Source: Pseudovirgaria hyperparasitica
Lineage: Eukaryota; Ascomycota; Dothideomycetes; Acrospermales; Acrospermaceae
Direction of reading: 5' to 3'
Length of the DNA stretch: 64,000 nt
NCBI RefSeq assembly: GCF_010093815.1
Contig: NW_022985556.1
Coordinates: 824,782-888,781, forward strand
Below are positions 3,521-48,719 of the stretch, one piece after another (the first letter of the stretch is position 1; each line of letters begins with the position of its first letter). The notes beneath the pieces are model-generated. The model did no database searches, was not told the origin of the DNA, and saw only the letters and a list, made by a program, of their open reading frames with translations. A program made the position numbers and the translations under genes.

Positions 3521-6500
3521 GTTGCGATGGATGATTAGGTGTGAGGCGGCGGCAAGGAATGTTGAACAAGGCTGAATGAGAGAGCAGCTTCGGACAGGGT
3601 GAGTCCTTGAGAGAAGGCTCGACGGCGATAGTGTTGTTTATAGATGGCAGGAGCGATGCGGAGATGTATGCCAGAGAGCCTTTGAGCCGGCGAGATAGCA
3701 GACGTAAGAAAAGGAAGCCCAACTGCTGGGCTGACGCAGAACGAGAAGAATGATAAAGAGCCAAGAACGGCGAGGTAAGACCAGCAGGGCTGGGATAAGT
3801 AATAGAAGAGAGGCTGAAGGCTGATGTATCGTTAAAAGACAAAAAAGGCAGGGAGATTATGAGACGCCGGTTAGGGCGATACCCGAACGGTGACCAGTAG
3901 TAGTGCGAAGGGCAAAGGGTAAAGTGTGGAGTGAGTGAATCAAGATGGCTGTGCGGGCCGCGCGATTGAGCAGACTGTGACTAGGCTGTGCTATGTATAC
4001 CTACCTGCCCTTGTGATGCCTGCTGGTGCTTGTAAGTCTGAACACAGAGAATGGTAAATGCAATCATTACGCATGCTATATCTATCATACATGTGGGCAG
4101 AGTCCAGGAGCAGAGAAAAGAAAAAGCCACCAAGGCTCGTCCAGTCGCGCACCGGGAAAACACGCTGATGCGACGATGCAGCCAAGCGGCATGGCGGCAG
4201 GGCCCACCCAGCATCCTGACCAGCCATGAACGGATGAGATTGGACAGAAAAAGACAGACAATGAAGTGAATCCGCAAAATGAGGAGGTCCATGAGGTCCA
4301 GATGCGGAGCCAGTCTAGCCTTCAGCGGAGAGCCGGTGATTAAATTTAGTTGAATGACACCAGAAGCATTTCAATAAGATGGTTGAGTTCGACCAGAATG
4401 AGAAGAGCAGGCATCTATATCGAACCGTGTCGGGCGATACAGGATGAATACATGTCATCACTCGGGCTTTGCCTAATACCTGGCATTATTAGTTGTCTGA
4501 ACAGGCGCCGAGTAATCAGGAATCGTGCTTTGAAGTCTTGGGAGCGAGAGATGAGGTGTCGTCGAGGCGGAGCATGAACCAGGGGTTTGTGCGCGTCCAA
4601 TCAGACGAGGGCTATTTGCAAGGGGCTCTGTCAAAACAACTAAAGATGCATCCAACGCCCAGGCGCAAGACGCACGACGAACGAGTCTTGTCACTTTGAA
4701 ACCTCAATGTTTTACAAGCCCTTTGCCCTCATATAGTGGACTGCCTACATTACGCGTCTTGCCTTGGCGCATCATCCTCAGCTCTGATTCCTGACTGCTG
4801 CTTATCAACACTCACGGAAGAGTCCCGTCCGCGGATCGGACTACTTGAACGTCCAGCATCCTGCTTGAGGTCCATAGTTACCGACCGCTGTTGCTGTCCA
4901 CGGGGCATATCTCCACTCCACATGCCATCGTCCACACTCAACACCATCTAATCGCTCGACCATGATTTGCCTGCTGGGTGCTAGGCGCAATGGACTTGCC
5001 ATGGACTAGAGTAGTTGGGATCATGGAAGCTCGAGATGCCGTACAAGAAGGCTAGGCCAAAAGCAGATACCACTCCAGGAAGCCCTAGGTCCACTGATAC
5101 CTAGGTAGGTATCAAGTATCAAGTTCAACATCTCGCCACTGTTACTTCCCTGTTCTGGATTAGTTCACGTAGTTTCGCGACGGTTGGAATATAAGAACAA
5201 ATATATTGCGGGGTAGCGCGATCTTCTCACCTATACACACACCTACGTCGGACGTCGATCGCGCACCGCCTGGTTGCGTGTGCACGTCTGCCGAGGATAT
5301 GCTGTACGCGGGTTCCATGATGATACACCGGTCTAATTACCGTACCTTGCACCTATGCCATCTATCACGCACTTTGCTCATTGACTGCTCTTAGAACTGG
5401 TGCTTGGTGCATAGTCTTGCAATGATCCAACCTTATCAGGAAAATTTTGGCATCGCGTGACCATTGGAGATGCATTTGTTATGTAGAACATGCGTATTCG
5501 TGTGATGATCACATAATTTCGCACACTCACACAGCAGTCACACCAACGAATAGTCGATATCAATGTCCAAATCGCCGTCCTCGGCGATGCCTCATTGTTT
5601 TATCTGATCCCTCGATCGTAGCGCCTACCGATGGACAGGCTTCTATGCCCGCACGCTCCAAACGTTAGGTGCTCGTGTAACGCCTCTAACGTTTCCAAAA
5701 TAGGCCTTAGATCACAATGCAGTGGTCTGGTCATAGCATCGTGTTCTGTTATATGACATTTGACAAGGTTAATTATTGTAAGCAAGTGTAAGCCTACCAA
5801 TATTAGCAGGGATCACCTTCACCTTCCTGCACATTGCAAATATGAGCTAATCATGCAGAAATAGACTCCTCCGACTGTCAGATTGCCAACCGTAGCATAG
5901 TACTCGTCAATTCTTCCCTTTCGATCTACATGGCACTTCAGACATCCATCCTTCTGGAAGCCTTACTCTACAGTCATAATATATATCTTTTGAGTGTCGT
6001 ATTGAGCGTTGGTACTGCCCCGTTACTAGAGGTCCACTTCATCGCGACATTAATCTCTATGAGACGTCTACAGATTCCTGCTCATCTTCCCGAGGTTTTG
6101 CAGCTCGCTATTAACTACATCCCGCTATGTGCTTCAGTGATCCTGCGACAATGTTGAGAATCGCTAACAAACGAGCAAATGTTTCGGCAAGATCGCTGCG
6201 GAACAGTCCGTCCTCATGTCAGAGAATAAGTCATTGACGGTTGGGCACTTTGCAAACTGCTATTATCGCAGTCTGAGGCATTAAGGTCTTGATGACTGGA
6301 AAGTAGTATATGAATACAATTGCATTTCTCCTACTCTTACAATGCCCGAATCAAGATCGTGGCTTAAGCTGATAGCTAATAATAACGAATGAATAGTTGG
6401 ACCCGCTAAGTCCGGAGCGCCACCTGACGTCTTTAGCCCCGTACCAGTACCTGACGCCTGAACCCTGAGCTCCACTACCAAACCACGATTGCCTACAGGA

Positions 6501-39924: not shown

Positions 39925-40696
39925 TCAGTGCAACTCATGGGATGCTGTCCAGTGAGCGCAGGACCCCGTGTTCTGTGAGAAACGCTGTTGTGTGTACTCT
40001 GGGATGAAGTATCTGGAATCCAGAGGTGTGGGGGACCTTTCAAGAGGCTTACGCGTTCTCGAGGACGATCTCCGGCGTTCATCCTTGATGGTTCCCACAG
40101 TTGTGAGAGGTGAAGGCGGTGGAGAAGAAGATTCGGCTCTGAACTCTGGCCGGAAGCGACATTGCTTCTTGCATGGCGGGCTCGGACACCTTGTTTCCTC
40201 GTATCTCGCTGCTTCGCCGGCTCTGAACTCTGGCCGGAAGCGACATTGCTTCTTGTATGGCGGGCTCGGACACCTTATTTCCTCGTATCTCGCTGCTTCG
40301 CCGGCGCTGGGCCTGATATTCGAGACGTCCAGTAAGGGGTGTGGATCGACAGACAGGATGCATCGGCCCAGGCTAGGCATTCTTTCCAGTACCGCGTCAA
40401 AGCCGTGGTAGCCTCTCAAGTCATCCAGGTGTTTAACTGTGTATGCGAGGATGTAGTGACGGAGTCCGATCTCCGGGTGTTGTTCGGGCAGCACGTCGCC
40501 AACAATGGCCAACAACTCGCAGAGCTCCCTCGCACCATGCTTCTCGGCGAGAAAGTGACTGGCGAATTTGTTGAAGAGCGCTTCCTGGAACCGCCCGGCG
40601 ACCAGGCGCTGCCCCAGAGCGTACAGCAGACCGATGGTGACAAAGTCACCTTCAGCCATGTGGTTCCTGTTGTTCTCGTTGTTGTCGTTGTTGTCG

Positions 40697-40748
<52 letters not shown>

Positions 40749-41075
40749 CTTTGGGATTGTCCAGCACCCAGCCGTTGCGGTACAGGTACTCGACAAAGTA
40801 GCCGAAACAGCCTGGGTCGACGTCGTCGAGGACGACTTTGCGACTGTACTGCTCCTGCAGCTTACCTTGGAGATGCTCCGCGAAGTATTCGGATTCTTGT
40901 CGCAAGAGCTCCGAGTGGATGTTGAAGGTTTTCTCTTGCTTGGTGCCGGTGTGGTTTTCTCTAGTGGTGATTGTCACGGTCACTACAGGCGACATAAGAC
41001 AGCTTGTGATATCAGTATAACGATCGCGAATGGGAGCGAGACCACTCACTCGGAGAATCTCATGCTTGGTTCCAT
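39925..41075 (-). CDS. BTB/POZ-domain protein with poly-Asn tract and internal duplication
   Basis: Likely BTB adaptor or regulator; partner unknown. Preferred model has two exons: 41075-41050 (MEPSMRFS) and 41002-39925, giving 367 aa; the intron starts GTGAGT. An unspliced alternative starts at 41229 or 40995. The BTB domain lies near the start: VTVTITTRENHTG, FNIHSELLRQESEYFAEHL, VDPGCFGYFVEYLYRNGW. A run of about 18 Asn, interrupted later by Asp/Glu, is encoded by the GTT tract (40672-40748) and splits the BTB region from the helical back part (FVTIGLLYALGQRLVAG and HYILAYTVKHLDDLRGYHGF). Near the C-terminus, 28 residues are duplicated in tandem (AGEAARYEE-RCPSPP-KKQCRF), the 84-bp repeat at 40137-40304. 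The tail is Ser/Pro/Arg-rich. Confidence 0.75.
40137..40304 (-). repeat. 84-bp tandem duplication inside the BTB gene
   Basis: Two copies (40137-40220, 40221-40304) of 84 bp, a multiple of three, differing at only a few bases. Adds 28 residues with Cys and Arg-rich content to the protein, so it looks recent. Confidence 0.93.
40672..40748 (-). repeat. (GTT)n repeat encoding poly-Asn
   Basis: Near-pure GTT/GTC units on the plus strand, encoding Asn (with Asp) on the minus strand. In frame within the BTB gene, so expansion changes the length of the Asn tract only. Confidence 0.95.
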
Positions 41076-42414
41076 GATTGCTTGGAGATCTGGACGGAAG
41101 CGCCTTTCGAGACAAATATGAGGTTTGTTGGTTGGAGGATAGTTGGTTGCCTAGAACCGATGAGAGAAAGGCGTTATCCAGCTTGCATTGTTCACTTAGT
41201 TCCACCAGACAGGCCTGTGCTCGCCACAAGCTATGGAAGAATGGAAAGATGCCTGTTCACTGTTCACTCGCAGCTCAGATCTAACCCCTCCCCCCCCCCC
41301 CCCCCCCCCCCCCCCCCCTGGCAGAGTTACAACTAAACAGCACTCAAGTGTCAGATCTCCTCTTCAGTGTTCAAGGGCACTACTATCTCTCAATAGCAGT
41401 CCCCACTCGACGCGAAGCCTCTCAGCCAATATATTCAACATCCGATCGTTCCCTCCTGTCTCTCACTCCAAGCTAGATACTTCCACCTCCACAAGTCCTG
41501 AAAGCTTCTCCAACTTCCTCAATGCTGCTTGTATCGCCCCTGAAATCTAGATATCCGTCAAGTACATAATTGCTTTGTTTGAGGTGTCAAATGTTGGCCT
41601 CGCCCAGCTATTCGCTGCTGCCGCAATATGCCTATGAGATAAGCGGCAATTTCTGGCCTGAGGCTATGGCACATAGCCAGGGGATGTGACATCTTCCCTT
41701 TGCCAAAGTCTTCACACATGCCGTTTCGCACACTATACCCATCGGCTGTCAAATTCATGGAGCTGTCCCGGCTCTGAAAGATTCCTCTTAGCAGCGTCGT
41801 CAAAGGGCCCAACTTCAGCTTCTCATAAGACTCTGTCTGCATTACGTGGGTGAGAAGTTTGAACATACTCCCCAGTCTTACTGTCAGTCATCTAAATGTA
41901 CTCTTCCACTCATGGGCACACATGACTCTCTATCCAGTACACATCCCAGCTCTGACCGACGAACAGAGTACCGAGCTCTTCCAGGACGACATCAAGACAG
42001 TCGGTACGTTGGACGCTACGTGCTCTCTTGACGGCTGCGACACGCATGTGGCTTGCATTGTTGATAGACTGCGATTTGCGAAAGGGAATTTTGGTCGCTG
42101 GACGTGATCGCCGCAACACTGAATCATCCTAGATGTCATCCAAGACGAGGAATGCGTTACGCAGAATATCGATAATGTCCTTGATAGCTATCCATAATGT
42201 CGCTGGTATGTCTAGCCAGACTTTGAGACATTCGATGAGCGTTGTTAGTACACCCTTATATGTCAAGCCGCGGATATACTGAGCTGAACAATCCAGTATA
42301 GAACCATATAAGTCTGTTTGATTCTCCACTCGGTCATCCTCTCGATCGAGTTGACGCAGCTGGCATTTTCTGAGCCTGAAGTATGCTCAGTAAACGATAC
42401 TGAATTCAAAGGCT
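41076..42414. other. Intergenic with poly-C tract
   Basis: Upstream of the third BTB gene. Contains an uninterrupted run of 29 C at 41290-41318. A 66-codon open frame on the minus strand (42129-42329) reads protein-like but connects to nothing in frame. No gene called. Confidence 0.5.
41290..41318 (+). repeat. Poly-C (C29) tract
   Basis: Homopolymer of 29 C about 215 bases upstream of the BTB start codon. Its exact length is likely unreliable in the assembly. Confidence 0.95.
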
Positions 42415-43068
42415 TTATATTGGACTCCTCACTGTTCGCTCCGTTTGTCGAAGGGGTACAACAACGGGACGTGCGATGCCATTCTCAATTTCTGCTGCTG
42501 GTATAGCTAGCCAGTCTACCCAATCGTCCATGTCAGCTTTACACATCCCGTACCGAGAAAGAACTGCACAGAAACAGTGATTGCCTCTAGCGCCAGCGGC
42601 GCAAGGGTCCAGAAATGCTTCTTGCGCCCTGCGATAGCTGCGTTTCAGGGCATACAACTTCTTCCGTGCCTGCAAGAACCTCCCCTCGTCGTTGATAGTC
42701 CTCACATGTATAGTTGCCTTGGCTTCATCAACGGTGGACGTTCTATCGCGGAGCGTGATATCGATCGAGTTGGTGAGTGGATCGCCGATCTGTTCTCTCG
42801 TTTGTACCTCGCCGTCGTAGGACCGATAATCGTTGGTGAATAGTCCGATTTGCCCGAGCGGGACGGTCAGGGGTTCTACGACTTCATGCTCTATGTCCGA
42901 GACTTGCGCGCCTGTGGCCAATTCGATCGTTGGATAGAACGCATCGACTCTATATTCCTCATACCGCTTCATGATGTAGTCGTCCAGGCCGTCATACTCG
43001 AGCAGTTTCGGATCGATATTCTGTGTCTCCCCCCAACTGGGTATACATGTCCATATGCCGCAACTCAA
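42415..43068 (-). CDS. Hypothetical protein, partial model
   Basis: Not recognised. An open frame of about 217 codons whose first codon at 43068 is TTG, so the true start lies in an upstream exon or at an internal ATG such as MKRYEEYRVD. The residue mix looks like real protein (balanced charge, few low-complexity runs): VDAFYPTIELATGAQVSDI, ATIHVRTINDEGRFLQARKK, LYALKRSYRRAQEAFLDPC. Its end may also be wrong: a GTGAGG donor (about 42426) and a CTTCAG acceptor 57 bases further on would replace the last residues with a short different tail. No signal peptide in the visible part. It neighbours the secreted-protein pair on the same strand, but no functional link is visible. Confidence 0.4.
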   Translation of the reverse strand: MSCGIWTCIPSWGETQNIDPKLLEYDGLDDYIMKRYEEYRVDAFYPTIELATGAQVSDIEHEVVEPLTVPLGQIGLFTNDYRSYDGEVQTREQIGDPLTNSIDITLRDRTSTVDEAKATIHVRTINDEGRFLQARKKLYALKRSYRRAQEAFLDPCAAGARGNHCFCAVLSRYGMCKADMDDWVDWLAIPAAEIENGIARPVVVPLRQTERTVRSPI

Positions 43069-43533
43069 ACCGCCTCTTCACGCGCGACGGATCCAAGAAA
43101 GACTATGCGGATAGGATGTTGTAGATAGAGGAGCACTTCGTCTCTTTGCTACTGCCTATGACGCTCGTAGTCATTACAGTCGCACAGTCTCGCGAACTCT
43201 CACCGGTCCAAGTCCTTTTTCACCTCTACAAATACTGCAAATATCGAGATAATGAACTTTCTCGTAGCTGGAGGCGAGGTGGAATTTCTTGTATTATGAA
43301 GAATACTGCTCATGTCGCGGGTTTCTCCTTGATGCGTGACCGAAGTATAACAACGAGTTCTCAACTCGAAGACCAGCTATCCTTGACGTCTGCTATGACT
43401 TTTGCCAGTCATGGAGGATATTACTATATTCTGTCGATAGCCCTAATGTTCATCCGACCTGTCGATTTTTAGGGGCCATTCCGGTCTCTCTGTTTGACTA
43501 ATTGTGAGGCGTGGTTTCAAACGGGAATAGCTT
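43069..43533. other. Intergenic
   Basis: Between the hypothetical gene and the first secreted-protein gene. The last 50 or so bases before 43534 match the 3' flank of the second secreted-protein gene, so they belong to the duplicated unit. Confidence 0.5.
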
Positions 43534-44169
43534 CTAGCAGAGCTTTCTATCTTTCTTGTGCTGTCGACCATATTTGACATCCCAACTGTCCATGGCGAAC
43601 CAACCGGGTCGATTTCCACAATATAAGTGAATTTGTAACCACATGTGTCCGAGGTCTTCCGGATGGCATGTCTGTCCTACATTTTCATAGACCCAAAACA
43701 TGATTTTGTACGAAGCGGTATAGTCACATTGAAATGCCACGACGTCGCCAGACGGGAAGGTTTTGAGACTGCCCCCATAATGTCTCCCCCATTTGTCCTT
43801 TCCGTTGCAGGGCCCGAACTGCAACTTTTGGACCTCTTCTATATCGCGATCCTCGAGAAAGTGTCCGTCTTCCCGGCATACGACGTTACCCTTCTCCAGC
43901 CCGGCTGGTAGATCTGTACTTGGGATGACATACTCTTCCAGAGTCTCGCCGTGTTTATGCTCATGTCTACAAACATCAACTTTGTCGAGAGATGCTGATC
44001 TTACGAAGTCGATGGCGGACCTGATATATGGAGAATTGGTGCGGTCATAGAATTCGCTTAAGCTCTGATTATTATAACGTTCAAACCAGCCTGGCGGTTT
44101 GCATTTATTCTTAGCGGCGCCTACAACGGTAGTGAAACCGATGATAACGAGGATGCTTCGAAGATGCAT
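43534..44169 (-). CDS. Secreted Cys-rich protein A (effector-like), tandem paralogue
   Basis: No known family recognised. Single exon, 211 aa. An N-terminal signal peptide (LRSILVIIGFTTVVGAA) predicts secretion, after which the mature part has eight cysteines. All eight align with those of the neighbouring gene at 44917, suggesting four disulfide bonds. Shared landmarks: CKPPGWFER near the mature N-terminus, VVCREDG, FPSGDVVAFQCDYT, VGQTCHPEDL, and a WDVKYGR motif before the final Cys. No membrane segment, GPI signal or enzyme motif is seen. Size, secretion and cysteine pattern match what is called a candidate effector in plant- or host-associated fungi, but that role is only inferred. Lies in AT-rich, gene-poor DNA. 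Confidence 0.78.
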   Translation of the reverse strand: MHLRSILVIIGFTTVVGAAKNKCKPPGWFERYNNQSLSEFYDRTNSPYIRSAIDFVRSASLDKVDVCRHEHKHGETLEEYVIPSTDLPAGLEKGNVVCREDGHFLEDRDIEEVQKLQFGPCNGKDKWGRHYGGSLKTFPSGDVVAFQCDYTASYKIMFWVYENVGQTCHPEDLGHMWLQIHLYCGNRPGWFAMDSWDVKYGRQHKKDRKLC

Positions 44170-44916
44170 TGCTGATATCGATGGCTGAGCGGTTTTGTGT
44201 ATCGTTTACGGCTGTAGTTTTGGAGGGGGGTTGGCTTTTTTGAAAATTAAGATGTAATTTGTGCTAAATAACGTTACTTATAGTCCATTGTAGTGTGACA
44301 TACTCTGAAACCCTCGTAGAACTGCAAAGTCGGACACCGTGCTTTTTGGAAAGGTCATCGGCCGACTACTATTAGCTAGAATAACTGCCTACGTATGTAT
44401 TGCTTAGTATATTGATAGTTAGATCGTCTACTTGTCCGGTCAGTCTAATTTGTTTCTCTCTTGTAATTAAGGTTGATATCGCTTTGTCACATATGATATG
44501 ACACATTCGGAGCCGTAACCTGCGTTCTCGACTAATGCGGCATTTGTAGGTACTCAATTAATTACTACACACGCTCGGACTGCGGCATATTACAATCGGC
44601 TACAATCCGAAGGCCGAGATTAGGATTATATGATTAGTCACCCTCAAAGTATGTAGTGAGAATTGCACCGTCTTGGCAATTATTTTGAGGCGTAGATTGA
44701 GCTTGTATGCTCTGTTAAAGTCTTGTCCCAGATTGAGATTGCGTGGATCTGGATTGTATGTACCCATCTCTGCCTCCAAGTACTTTCCACCAATACAAAT
44801 GCCATAAAATATCAAGAGAATGAACCGCCAACATGCGTTGCCGTATCTCAAGGCAAGGTAAAACTCTTATATCTGTTCGGCTAACTGCGAGGAATTGTTT
44901 CAAACGGAAATTCTCC
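44170..44916. other. Duplicated upstream region of secreted protein A
   Basis: Contains blocks matching the upstream region of secreted protein B: CACCGTGCTTTTTGGAAAGG at 44335, ATTAGCTAGAATA at 44371, ACACATTCGGAGCCGT at 44500 and ATATGATTAGTCAC at about 44626. Their order and spacing match those of copy B. The stretch 44643-44867 is outside the repeat and shows no gene. Confidence 0.75.
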
Positions 44917-45543
44917 CTACTCGCAGAGCCCTCTATATTCTTTACGCACCCGACCATATGCGACATCCCACTTCCGCATATAAAAGTACCCGCTTTGAGT
45001 TCCACAGTGTATGTGAACTTGTAATAACATCGCTACAAGCGATTCCGGGTGGCATGTCTGTCCTACCGGTTTCCCATGGTGCTTTTTGTCCTTTTTTGTA
45101 TAGTCACATTGAAATGCCTCAAGGTTTCCGGAGGGGAAGGATAAACGTTCGGGTCCGAAGTTTTTTCCCCAATGCGATCCGTTACAGGCTTTTAATTGTG
45201 CCCTTTGGGCAGTTTTCACATCCTCTCTATCGACCGGAGGTCCATTTTTCTGGCATACGACGACACCCCCACTCAACTCAGATGGTACATCTTTATCTGT
45301 GAGTTTGTACTTTGCCTGCTCCTCCTGGCCGATGCCCTCATAAGCATCACAAGAGTCATAATCATCGGAACGTATCGATTTGTAGTACTGAATGGCGGTC
45401 TGGAATTCAGAATCAGAATTGTTATAGAGCATATCTAAGTGTTGAGGAGTGGTCCGTTCGAACCATTCTGACGGTTTGCAATTAAGCACAGCGCCTACGC
45501 TAGTAATGATACCGATAATGACGAGGATGCTTGGAGGATGCAT
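44917..45543 (-). CDS. Secreted Cys-rich protein B (effector-like), tandem paralogue
   Basis: Paralogue of the protein encoded at 43534, same strand, 208 aa, single exon. Signal peptide PPSILVIIGIITSVGA, mature start LNCKPSEWFER. Eight cysteines at equivalent places, with landmarks VVVCQKNG, FPSGNLEAFQCDYT, VGQTCHPESL, IHCGTQSG and WDVAYGRVRKEY. By eye the pair is clearly homologous yet quite diverged, mostly between residues 25 and 90 where one copy is acidic and Tyr-rich (SIRSDDYDSCDAYEG). Conserved cysteines with diverged surface residues would fit relaxed or diversifying selection; this was not measured. The start codons are 1374 bp apart, while conserved upstream blocks are 1390-1399 bp apart, so gene and promoter were copied as one unit. 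Confidence 0.78.
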   Translation of the reverse strand: MHPPSILVIIGIITSVGAVLNCKPSEWFERTTPQHLDMLYNNSDSEFQTAIQYYKSIRSDDYDSCDAYEGIGQEEQAKYKLTDKDVPSELSGGVVVCQKNGPPVDREDVKTAQRAQLKACNGSHWGKNFGPERLSFPSGNLEAFQCDYTKKDKKHHGKPVGQTCHPESLVAMLLQVHIHCGTQSGYFYMRKWDVAYGRVRKEYRGLCE

Positions 45544-47978
45544 TTGTAGTATAGACGACTTGGCGGTACTTTGTTGTTCGCGGCTTTGTTCCAGAAAGAA
45601 GGTGGCTATTCAATGATTAAGACGTATGCTACATGGTATTACTTATAGTCCACTTTGGTGACCTTACTATGACATACTACGAAACCTTCATAGATATTTA
45701 TAATATAATTCGCGTGAACCTGGGCACCGTGCTTTTTGGAAAGGTCATCGGCCGAATGCTATTAGCTAGAATAGAAGCGTATGTATACATATAGCTTGAA
45801 ATCTACTCAATTAGAGCGCCTACCTAAAAGGGAGAAGCACCAATACGTTCAGTCTAAGATGTATCCCTCTTTTCAGGATGACATACAACGTGTAATATGA
45901 CACATTCGGAGCCGTGTCCCTCGACTGATGCGGCATCTTAGGTACTAACATATCTACACACGTTCAGACTTCGGCATATACAATTGGACACAATCCAAGG
46001 GTCTATACTAGGATTGTATGATTAGTCACTGTATAAATGAGCTTACGATCTATTCCGAGGGCGTGGGATTACTTTGTATTAGATTGAATAAAGTTGGGTG
46101 TATCCATACTAGGCCATATCGAGGCAGACCTTAGGCCTAAGGCAGAAAGTAAGCCTTAGGTTAATATTCATGCCTGATTCTAGCCTAAGAGAAGGCATTA
46201 AGCGATAGATAAACATATACCCTACTTTATTTAATCTAACACAAGTAATCTAGCCAATTAGATTAAGACTATACCACATTAGTCGTTAATCTAAACCATA
46301 TATTAAGCTCGTATTCTCTATTGCAATTTTAACTAGATTCAGCTTATATACTCGGATTAATTGATATATTTACCGAAGTCTATATATATAGCTTACTTAC
46401 GAATGGTACGTAGCGAGAGTTAGAAGTGATGAGTTAGTACCCTTACATTATGCATTCGAAAAGATCTTCTAGGGTGAAGCCTTTAGAGTAGTACTACGGA
46501 GTAACCAATCTCACTTATTAACAGGTACGTTGTTGGTTTAATTTAGCGTTTTCCTTAAAGAACTGAGGATATTACCTTAACATCACCTACCATTTGGCCC
46601 CTAGTGTAACGTTGCTTATTGGAATGTTATCGAGTATAGGTATGTAAGAAGTAAGAAGCATGTCTATTAATAACTATTAATACGTTCTATATATGTGCCT
46701 TATAAGTTATAGGGAGATTACATAAAGAAGGGGGCACGTGATAACAGATAATATTCCATGCATGTCCGTAATGAAAAGGTAAAATAAGGTGAGGTTGAAA
46801 ATAGATCGAATCATGACAATTAGCGGAAGTCCCATCAGTATTAAAAAGGACCATATCGAACTCCGTGCGCGTTACATCTTAATCTCGATTAACAAAATTA
46901 GTCGTGCTAAATCTAGCGAGTGAACGACTATTTACCGGCTAGTTTTTGGAGTAATCATCTTCTAGAACTGATATATTATCCAGTAAGGAGCAGCAGAGTT
47001 TTCAGTTCACCCGTTTATCTATGTTGAGACATTGTGATCTTAGTTGCCACATTGATATGAAAAGGCTCTTCTTAGGAACAGTCTGTTTGTCGCCGGCTGG
47101 GTCCTGTATGCCTCTTGATTTACCAACCTTGGAGTACCTCGGTATGAAGCACATGAGCCTCAGTATGGACTGGATAGGGGTAGATTTAGGTAGGCACACC
47201 TGTGGAGACTTGACGATTATCTGTATATCTCGCTTATGTGGTATATATTAGTCTCCCGCCTTGTGTGATAGTCAAAGACGGAAGATAATCAGCACTTGAC
47301 ATGGAAGATGATGACATCAGACTATGCTATGAGCAGTCTCGCTGTGATCAAATGATAGGTTCAGTAAGACTTGTCTCACGAATGATTTCAAGCATTGTTT
47401 CTGCATTAGTGGCTGTTATCCGTGTCTCATTCAGTCTAGCAGATATAGCTGTTATAACTACTTGTATGTTATCAACGCTGTGTATAGCTATGCTATGTAT
47501 TGCCTATCTTAGCATTTCAGAGCTATTCGGGAGTTTCATCCTAAGCCGTTTCATGGAGAGCTGTACTGTACACCTTATAGATCGGACACCCTCTGTTTGT
47601 TTTCTATCGGCGTACACGATTGTTTCAGTAGCGGATAGATCTCGAAGGTTCATCACCTGTCAGTAGTTCGCCAAAGGTTGGTCGCACTGTCTTACGAGTG
47701 AATTGGATGCCATGAGCTTACGACCCTCTGGAGCGCTGCGCATGCTCTGTTTCTTGTTTCATTGTTGTACAATTTCGGTATCTTGTTTTCATTGTTAAAT
47801 AAGAAGGACTTCCTTGCAGTTCGTCAGGCTCCATTTCGCCCCTCACATTCCTCCCATACCCCTGCTATTGCCACTGCTCTTGTACGTATAAAGGCGAGCG
47901 AGATTATGACTAGTTTAATGTAAAGTGAACCACAAACAACAACTTGTGTAAGTTCGCATATTGAAGCCCACACGCACC
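45544..47978. other. AT-rich gene-poor region
   Basis: 2.4 kb. 45640-46031 repeats the upstream DNA of secreted gene A. From 46040 to about 47000 the sequence is strongly AT-rich with TA-rich words and includes a perfect 14-bp palindrome (CCTTAGGCCTAAGG, 46129-46142). This look is common in old, mutated repeats of filamentous fungi, but no transposon protein or terminal repeat can be read. A 121-codon hydrophobic open frame at 47301-47666 is not called. The last 100 bases are the leader of the next gene. Confidence 0.6.
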
Positions 47979-48719
47979 ATGGCATCACGCAACAACGAAA
48001 CCGAACTCGAGAACCTAGGCCAAGGAAGATCTCGCAGCAGGGGAGATGGTGGACTCTTTAGACCACCTGACGCACACCTTCTAAGACAACGAAGCTCTAG
48101 TGCTTCTCCTCGCCGTGTCTCTGGTCCTAAAACTTCTCGATCCCCATCCAGGACGGTATCTAATCCTCTCGGGCTTCATGAGTCAAGCTCGACCGTGAGG
48201 AGATCTTCTCCGGCATTCTCACCTTCTGGGCGTCCTGGCAATGATGAAAGGAGACACCGCCCTGACCGTGAAGAGTTCGACGTAGGAACGGGCGCATCGA
48301 TATCGCTGTCATCGTCTGCACAACACGGACAGCGTGCTAACGACGGTAGAGAAAATCAATGGAGGATAAGCCAGTATAGCGGCTCCAGAGATCAGCGTGC
48401 ATCGGTATCGCCATCACCACAGCGCTCACAGAGCCGTGACTATTATGATAGAGAAGGCGGACGAAGGATGAGACAGCATAGTGGCTCTAGAGCGTACCAT
48501 GGATCCAGAGGACGTAGTCGGGTAGGGCGATCCCACCAGAGTCGACATCATTCAGCCAGCGACACGCATATAACGACTCCCCATCTGGATGGGTCTCGCA
48601 GGGAATACACTTCGGGATATGGCAGACAGAGATCAAGCATGCACGCGGTGCCACGAGATGCAAACTCCCGATGGAGTAGGTCACCTTCGGAAGATAGTTC
48701 CGATTGTTGCGGTTGTTGA
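47979..48719 (+). CDS. Arg/Ser-rich disordered protein, unknown function
   Basis: Not recognised. Single exon, 246 aa from ATG 47979 (preceded by CACC), ending SSDCCGC. Almost entirely low-complexity: Ser, Arg, Gly and Pro dominate, with many RS, SRS and SPS words (RSRSRGDGG, SASPRRVSG, TSRSPSRTVS). No domain, signal peptide or membrane segment. The Cys-rich end (CCGC) could be lipidated or metal-binding, but there is no CaaX box. RS-rich proteins often take part in RNA handling, but nothing here proves that. Another Arg/Ser-rich protein lies 1.8 kb away on the opposite strand. Confidence 0.5.
   Translation: MASRNNETELENLGQGRSRSRGDGGLFRPPDAHLLRQRSSSASPRRVSGPKTSRSPSRTVSNPLGLHESSSTVRRSSPAFSPSGRPGNDERRHRPDREEFDVGTGASISLSSSAQHGQRANDGRENQWRISQYSGSRDQRASVSPSPQRSQSRDYYDREGGRRMRQHSGSRAYHGSRGRSRVGRSHQSRHHSASDTHITTPHLDGSRREYTSGYGRQRSSMHAVPRDANSRWSRSPSEDSSDCCGC

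Follow-up and report, generated by a model that had tools for sequence, protein, structure and literature searches.

A species-restricted family of small, probably secreted cysteine-rich proteins in Pseudovirgaria hyperparasitica with a predicted KP4/ginkbilobin/Y3 fold

The described systems closest to the proteins reported here are the KP4 killer protein family, the plant DUF26/ginkbilobin-2 domain, and the glycan-binding mushroom proteins Y3 and LDL. DUF26 is described in a passage of PMC6368629 as specific to land plants. The yeast killer toxins SMKT, Klus and KHR adopt an alpha/beta-sandwich fold and are alpha/beta heterodimers, according to an excerpt of PMC13211469. Here, we examined two neighboring genes, A and B, in a 64,000-nucleotide stretch (the window) of the genome of the ascomycete P. 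hyperparasitica (Dothideomycetes, Acrospermales; assembly of 35.0 Mb in 59 contigs). Both belong to a dispersed, expanded family of small, probably secreted cysteine-rich proteins without a recognized sequence domain, the core of which is predicted to adopt the KP4/ginkbilobin/Y3 alpha/beta-sandwich fold.

A first-pass annotation of the window, made from the DNA letters, had proposed two same-strand genes for secreted eight-cysteine proteins with no recognizable domain, duplicated in tandem together with their upstream DNA. Both open frames were recovered on the minus strand (Table 1). The encoded proteins are identical in 91 of 212 alignment columns (43%), and their local alignment score is 417, whereas 1,000 shuffled sequences averaged 31.9 and did not exceed 59. 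All eight cysteines of one protein line up with those of the other. Each N-terminus is hydrophobic (mean Kyte-Doolittle value for residues 5-19 of 2.22 in A and 2.51 in B), in keeping with the proposed signal peptides, and secretion is predicted. At the DNA level, similarity extends ~45 bp beyond the stop codons and reaches upstream to ~44641 (A) and ~46029 (B). The duplication unit thus stands, with its length adjusted from about 1.16 to ~1.15 kb and its extension past the stops from about 35 bp to the present figure. A Pfam scan of A and B at E values up to 1 gave no family match, and a PDB sequence search gave no meaningful one. Rfam at gathering thresholds found no structured RNA in 42000-48000. 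No viral relative was found by sequence (a single scan with A) or by fold.

The two genes are not the only copies. In six-frame searches of the whole genome that used five members as queries (A, B and three others), at least 13 loci were placed on nine contigs; a weak match at C1:2188955 (E 0.4) was excluded from the 13. Eleven members have open reading frames that include a start codon. The exceptions are G, a 150-amino-acid open stretch that one search read with one stop, and L, which has a 5' frame break in the signal-peptide region (L050, ~2763-2806) and a database entry marked partial; both may be decaying inside the family. Two further features were seen among the members. F carries a low-complexity N-terminal half, Gly-rich and Lys/Glu-rich, ahead of the conserved core. 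C is bracketed by 165-bp direct repeats that are 96% identical (2405-2569 and 4494-4658 of locus L041), and relatives of these repeats lie near member L, which may bear on the dispersal of the family.

We searched ~5.8 billion proteins with A alone, with a ten-member core alignment and with a 13-member core alignment (E up to 10). Candidates passed in 3 of 59, 5 of 5,700 and 5 of 1,371 cases, respectively, and all were from P. hyperparasitica; no relative from outside the species was found among these proteins by a method that needs shared five-residue words and can miss remote relatives. Pfam searches of all 13 members at E values up to 0.5 returned just three unrelated weak matches, in one member apiece (best E 0.054), and the family was not described in any paper found by a literature search of titles and abstract beginnings. 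The first-pass annotation had named a known enzyme or housekeeping family, or single conserved copies of both genes across the whole class, as outcomes contrary to its proposal of a young or species-restricted family. We found no such family match and no copy beyond the species, and within the reach of these searches the restriction holds.

Profile and structure-prediction searches for distant homologs had also been suggested. The former gave no Pfam homolog, and the latter a predicted sandwich. The model covers residues 20-208 of the gene B protein, with a core at residues ~89-203 and an overall predicted local distance difference test (pLDDT) score of 59.9. Its best Foldseek E value was 0.012. 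In both Foldseek and a VIA re-alignment of the Foldseek candidates, the KP4/ginkbilobin/Y3 superfamily ranked first and was well separated from unrelated folds. A KP6/ferredoxin-like fold had been our initial guess from topology; the fold search yielded KP4/DUF26/Y3 without KP6 in its list, which does not in itself exclude KP6. The match might instead be an artefact of a shallow alignment, making A and B orphan cystine-rich secreted proteins of another fold, possibly effectors still. The low pLDDT, the E value of the best match and a first AlphaFold2 (AF2) model, of gene A, which was too weak for any fold to be found, all lean that way. However, a single superfamily stands clear of the others, and C98-C184 maps near the DUF26 bridge Cys36-Cys113 when positions are interpolated, roughly and linearly, between the limits of the aligned segments. 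Y3 and LDL have one of the three DUF26 bridges in common, as stated in a section of PMC6368629. We therefore regard an artefact as a minor, though appreciable, possibility.

Alignment of the 13 sequences revealed invariant residues at C98, C148, Q166, C184, G189, W196, Y200, G201 and C211 (gene A numbering). Individual members have 4-8 cysteines. Seven members have both C121 and C168, and six lack the two. C23 and C67 are both found in A-E, G has C67 (its N-terminus is missing), and the other seven members have neither. Members H, I, K and L have an extra pair that the other nine lack, formed by a cysteine four residues past the C148 equivalent and a second C-terminal cysteine. Because these cysteines are present or absent as pairs, the pattern suggests that disulfides differ between clades, with the reservation that the counts come from related sequences and are hence not independent. 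The presumed bridges would be C23-C67 and C121-C168, with two more among C98, C148, C184 and C211, one of them probably C98-C184.

The first-pass annotation had suggested a young pair and a comparison of dN/dS (nonsynonymous to synonymous substitution rates) between the copies. Youth was not borne out. By the Nei-Gojobori method, A and B differ at a dS of 0.70; either of them compared with C or D gives 0.64-0.78, C compared with D gives 0.32, and pairs with E give 0.92-1.09. In a protein tree, A-G stand apart from H-M (support 90/93, not a starred node), F, G and J form long branches, and A, B and C/D make an unresolved three-way split; the only starred nodes are C+D and K+L+M. We rejected a recent tandem duplication because of the dS of ~0.7 and because the tree does not resolve A and B as sisters. 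Tandem origin is nonetheless retained, because DNA similarity at -480 to -241 is special to this pair (78%, vs 41-55% in five other pairs compared). As judged from the DNA, A and B are true tandem copies, and the C/D lineage branched off at a similar depth. Across ten pairs within the family, mature-part dN/dS is 0.49-0.91; the bootstrap interval contains 1 in six pairs, and 1 lies above the interval in four (A-C, A-E, C-E and D-E). By these measures the proteins are diverging fast, and positive selection is not demonstrated.

Proximal upstream DNA has changed less in most of the pairs compared. The collinear blocks 1390-1399 bp apart reported in the first-pass annotation are present, at 44335/45725, 44371/45761 and 44501/45900 (spacings of 1390, 1390 and 1399 bp); the first proved to be a 31-bp identical run, and the distal end of each repeated upstream stretch belongs to a dispersed element described below. 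This run, the longest identical stretch between A and B, lies ~165-212 bp before the ATG, and none of 5,000 column permutations reached its length (maximum 29). With up to three mismatches, the 31-mer occurs only at A and B genome-wide. A degenerate 26-mer written from A, B, C and E has four genome sites at the same tolerance, all ahead of family members, and its reversed control has none; recovery of these four is by construction, and the informative outcome is the absence of a fifth site. A genome-wide regulon defined by the module is accordingly unsupported.

Identity at -240 to -150 is 69-83%, vs 44-66% by part in mature coding DNA, for A-B, A-C, B-C, A-E and C-E. C-D is the exception (70% vs 75-76%), and D, the member closest to C, lacks most of the module. 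K, L and M have ~220 bp of another upstream sequence in common. Because upstream stretches are kept in A-C/E and in K-M, dispersing paralogs tend to retain the proximal promoter, and close family members are probably switched on together, since their module is nearly fixed. Common modules would also fit a single developmental program, and lectin-like folds could bind glycans of the fungus's own walls. The proteins might then be secreted self/non-self or developmental factors acting there in hyphal contact, sporulation or surface binding. Conserved developmental proteins usually have some relative in other fungi, but none was found by the shared-word protein searches described above, and we consider this explanation improbable.

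P. hyperparasitica grows on rust sori. Its genus is called fungicolous in the title of Braun et al. 2011. The interpretation we favor, at just short of even confidence, is that A and B are lineage-restricted secreted alpha/beta-sandwich proteins acting on the surface of a fungal host, with secretion and fold predicted and target and action inferred. Of the readings considered, action as surface toxins or glycan binders accounts best for the predicted fold, the fungicolous genus and the fast sequence change together. After removal of the signal peptide, the protein would fold into a disulfide-braced sandwich of two helices against an antiparallel sheet, held by two core disulfides and optional extra ones. 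It would then act extracellularly at the host surface, by binding cell-wall glycans and/or disturbing the membrane or ion channels. Close copies would be co-regulated through the upstream module while their mature sequences diversify. KP4-like genes of Fusarium are strongly induced by contact with another fungus, as reported in a portion of PMC9506348, and may offer a useful parallel for induction here. The earlier suggestion of an interaction with a host or competitor thus fits a fungicolous organism, with target and activity still a matter of inference.

A broader version is rather less probable: a fungus-parasitic fungus would have evolved an arsenal that comprises no fewer than 13 proteins of killer-toxin/antifungal-lectin fold and is not known from other organisms by sequence. 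A single hyperconserved switch upstream would control the close members, while mature sequences and disulfide layout would diversify in the manner of an arms race with the fungal host.

The family also shows operational traits of fungal candidate effectors: its members are small, cysteine-rich, lineage-restricted and fast-diverging, and A and B, the two assessed in this respect, lie in AT-rich, repeat-bounded DNA. The proteins could be effectors with neither toxin nor lectin activity, fast-evolving decoys or inhibitors acting on host immunity, in the plant that bears the rust or in the fungus itself, for which the sandwich would be no more than a stable scaffold. The mature dN/dS values are compatible with this, and effector families alike in fold and not in sequence have been reported from plant-pathogenic fungi. 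For a pectin-degrading enzyme of P. hyperparasitica, a transcript was seen only in rust-diseased crabapple leaves, according to part of PMC12542627; contact of the fungus with plant tissue is thus also conceivable. The nearest folds, however, are mostly toxic or sugar-binding, although a common fold does not prove function, and we judge such a role unlikely while keeping it in serious consideration.

To our knowledge, effectors used by fungi against fungi are poorly known, above all those against hard-to-culture rust fungi. Being lineage-restricted, with a killer-toxin/lectin fold predicted for it, a probable common switch and diversifying sequence, the family supplies concrete, testable candidates. 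If the fold is as predicted, the KP4/DUF26/Y3 superfold would extend to an orphan family missed by sequence searches, with possible leads for biocontrol.

The AT-rich setting noted in the first-pass annotation was confirmed for 44001-48000, where GC content in 2-kb steps is 0.433 and 0.397 (window mean 0.505). Both units end upstream in copies of a dispersed element resembling a miniature inverted-repeat transposable element (MITE). It accounts for 49 of the 55 listed genome matches to the 2.7-kb locus, a lower bound in which some entries are two halves of one element copy. Two full copies elsewhere in the genome, L007 and L008, match each other at 99% over 462 bp; their internal halves are inverted, their middle is palindromic, and their ends resemble terminal inverted repeats. 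The adjoining segment 46031-47900 is gene-poor (GC 0.398), with dinucleotide ratios of the repeat-induced point mutation (RIP) type by commonly used cut-offs; TpA/ApT is 1.10, vs 0.72 in 1-40000. With such elements and RIP-like DNA beside A and B, and with G and L looking decayed or incomplete, the family might consist of defunct gene remnants that transposable elements have multiplied. Yet most members keep open frames, four cysteines are invariant and the upstream modules are conserved, which makes this very improbable. On the other side of the pair, an open frame at 42415-43068 (-) matches the terpene synthase C-terminal metal-binding domain (PF19086, E 3.5e-6) and may be a fragment or a single exon, and 39925-41229 (-) encodes a BTB/POZ protein that includes a long stretch of asparagines.

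Table 1. Positions of genes A and B, their upstream features and the family members (window coordinates unless a contig is named)
Feature	Location	Strand	Source
Gene A, 211-amino-acid eight-cysteine protein, hydrophobic N-terminus, single open frame	43534..44169	-	ORF list, Pfam scan, family search
Gene B, 208-amino-acid eight-cysteine paralog of gene A	44917..45543	-	ORF list, alignment, structure model, fold matches
Module upstream of gene A, comprising the 31-bp run shared identically with B and ATTAGCTAGAATA	44335..44383	-	
Corresponding module upstream of gene B	45725..45773	-	
Distal 21-bp identical block, gene A upstream	44496..44516	-	
Distal 21-bp identical block, gene B upstream	45895..45915	-	
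Short copy of dispersed MITE-like element, upstream end of unit A	~44585..44773		
Longer, diverged copy of dispersed MITE-like element, upstream end of unit B	~45965..46330		
Members A, B, J	contig C8		
Members C, E	contig C4		
Members D, H	contig C12		
Member F	contig C31 (L044 2482-3165)		
Member G	contig C1		
Member I	contig C21		
Member K	contig C18		
Member L	contig C5		
Member M	contig C3		

Compared with known systems, the family stands apart in sequence. PF09044 (KP4) matched none of the 13 members at E ≤ 0.5 and nothing in the whole genome, in a search for which one of 14 control genomes gave a hit below the cut-off. KP4 proteins, including Zt-KP4 of Zymoseptoria tritici, are 5-7% identical to the model, and the present family differs from them in its 4-8 cysteines and an extra N-terminal region of ~60 residues. 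The profile of the antifungal, mannose-binding DUF26/ginkbilobin-2 domain (PF01657) had no match among the 13 members (E up to 0.5), and its C-X8-C-X2-C motif is present in none of them. The toxins SMKT, Klus and KHR resemble the predicted fold in their alpha/beta sandwich, and the heterodimer organization is theirs; PF21414, used for this comparison, had no match among the 13 members, and genome searches with PF21414 and PF24145 gave none, though controls also gave none. Y3 (Coprinus comatus) and LDL (Lyophyllum decastes) are 5-10% identical to the model. They come from basidiomycetes, whereas the present family comes from an ascomycete and is known here from sequence and a model. Because neither the Pfam profiles nor the DUF26 cysteine motif fit, we do not class the family as KP4 or DUF26; it may work like them, and it is probably an orphan sequence family built on an already known superfold.
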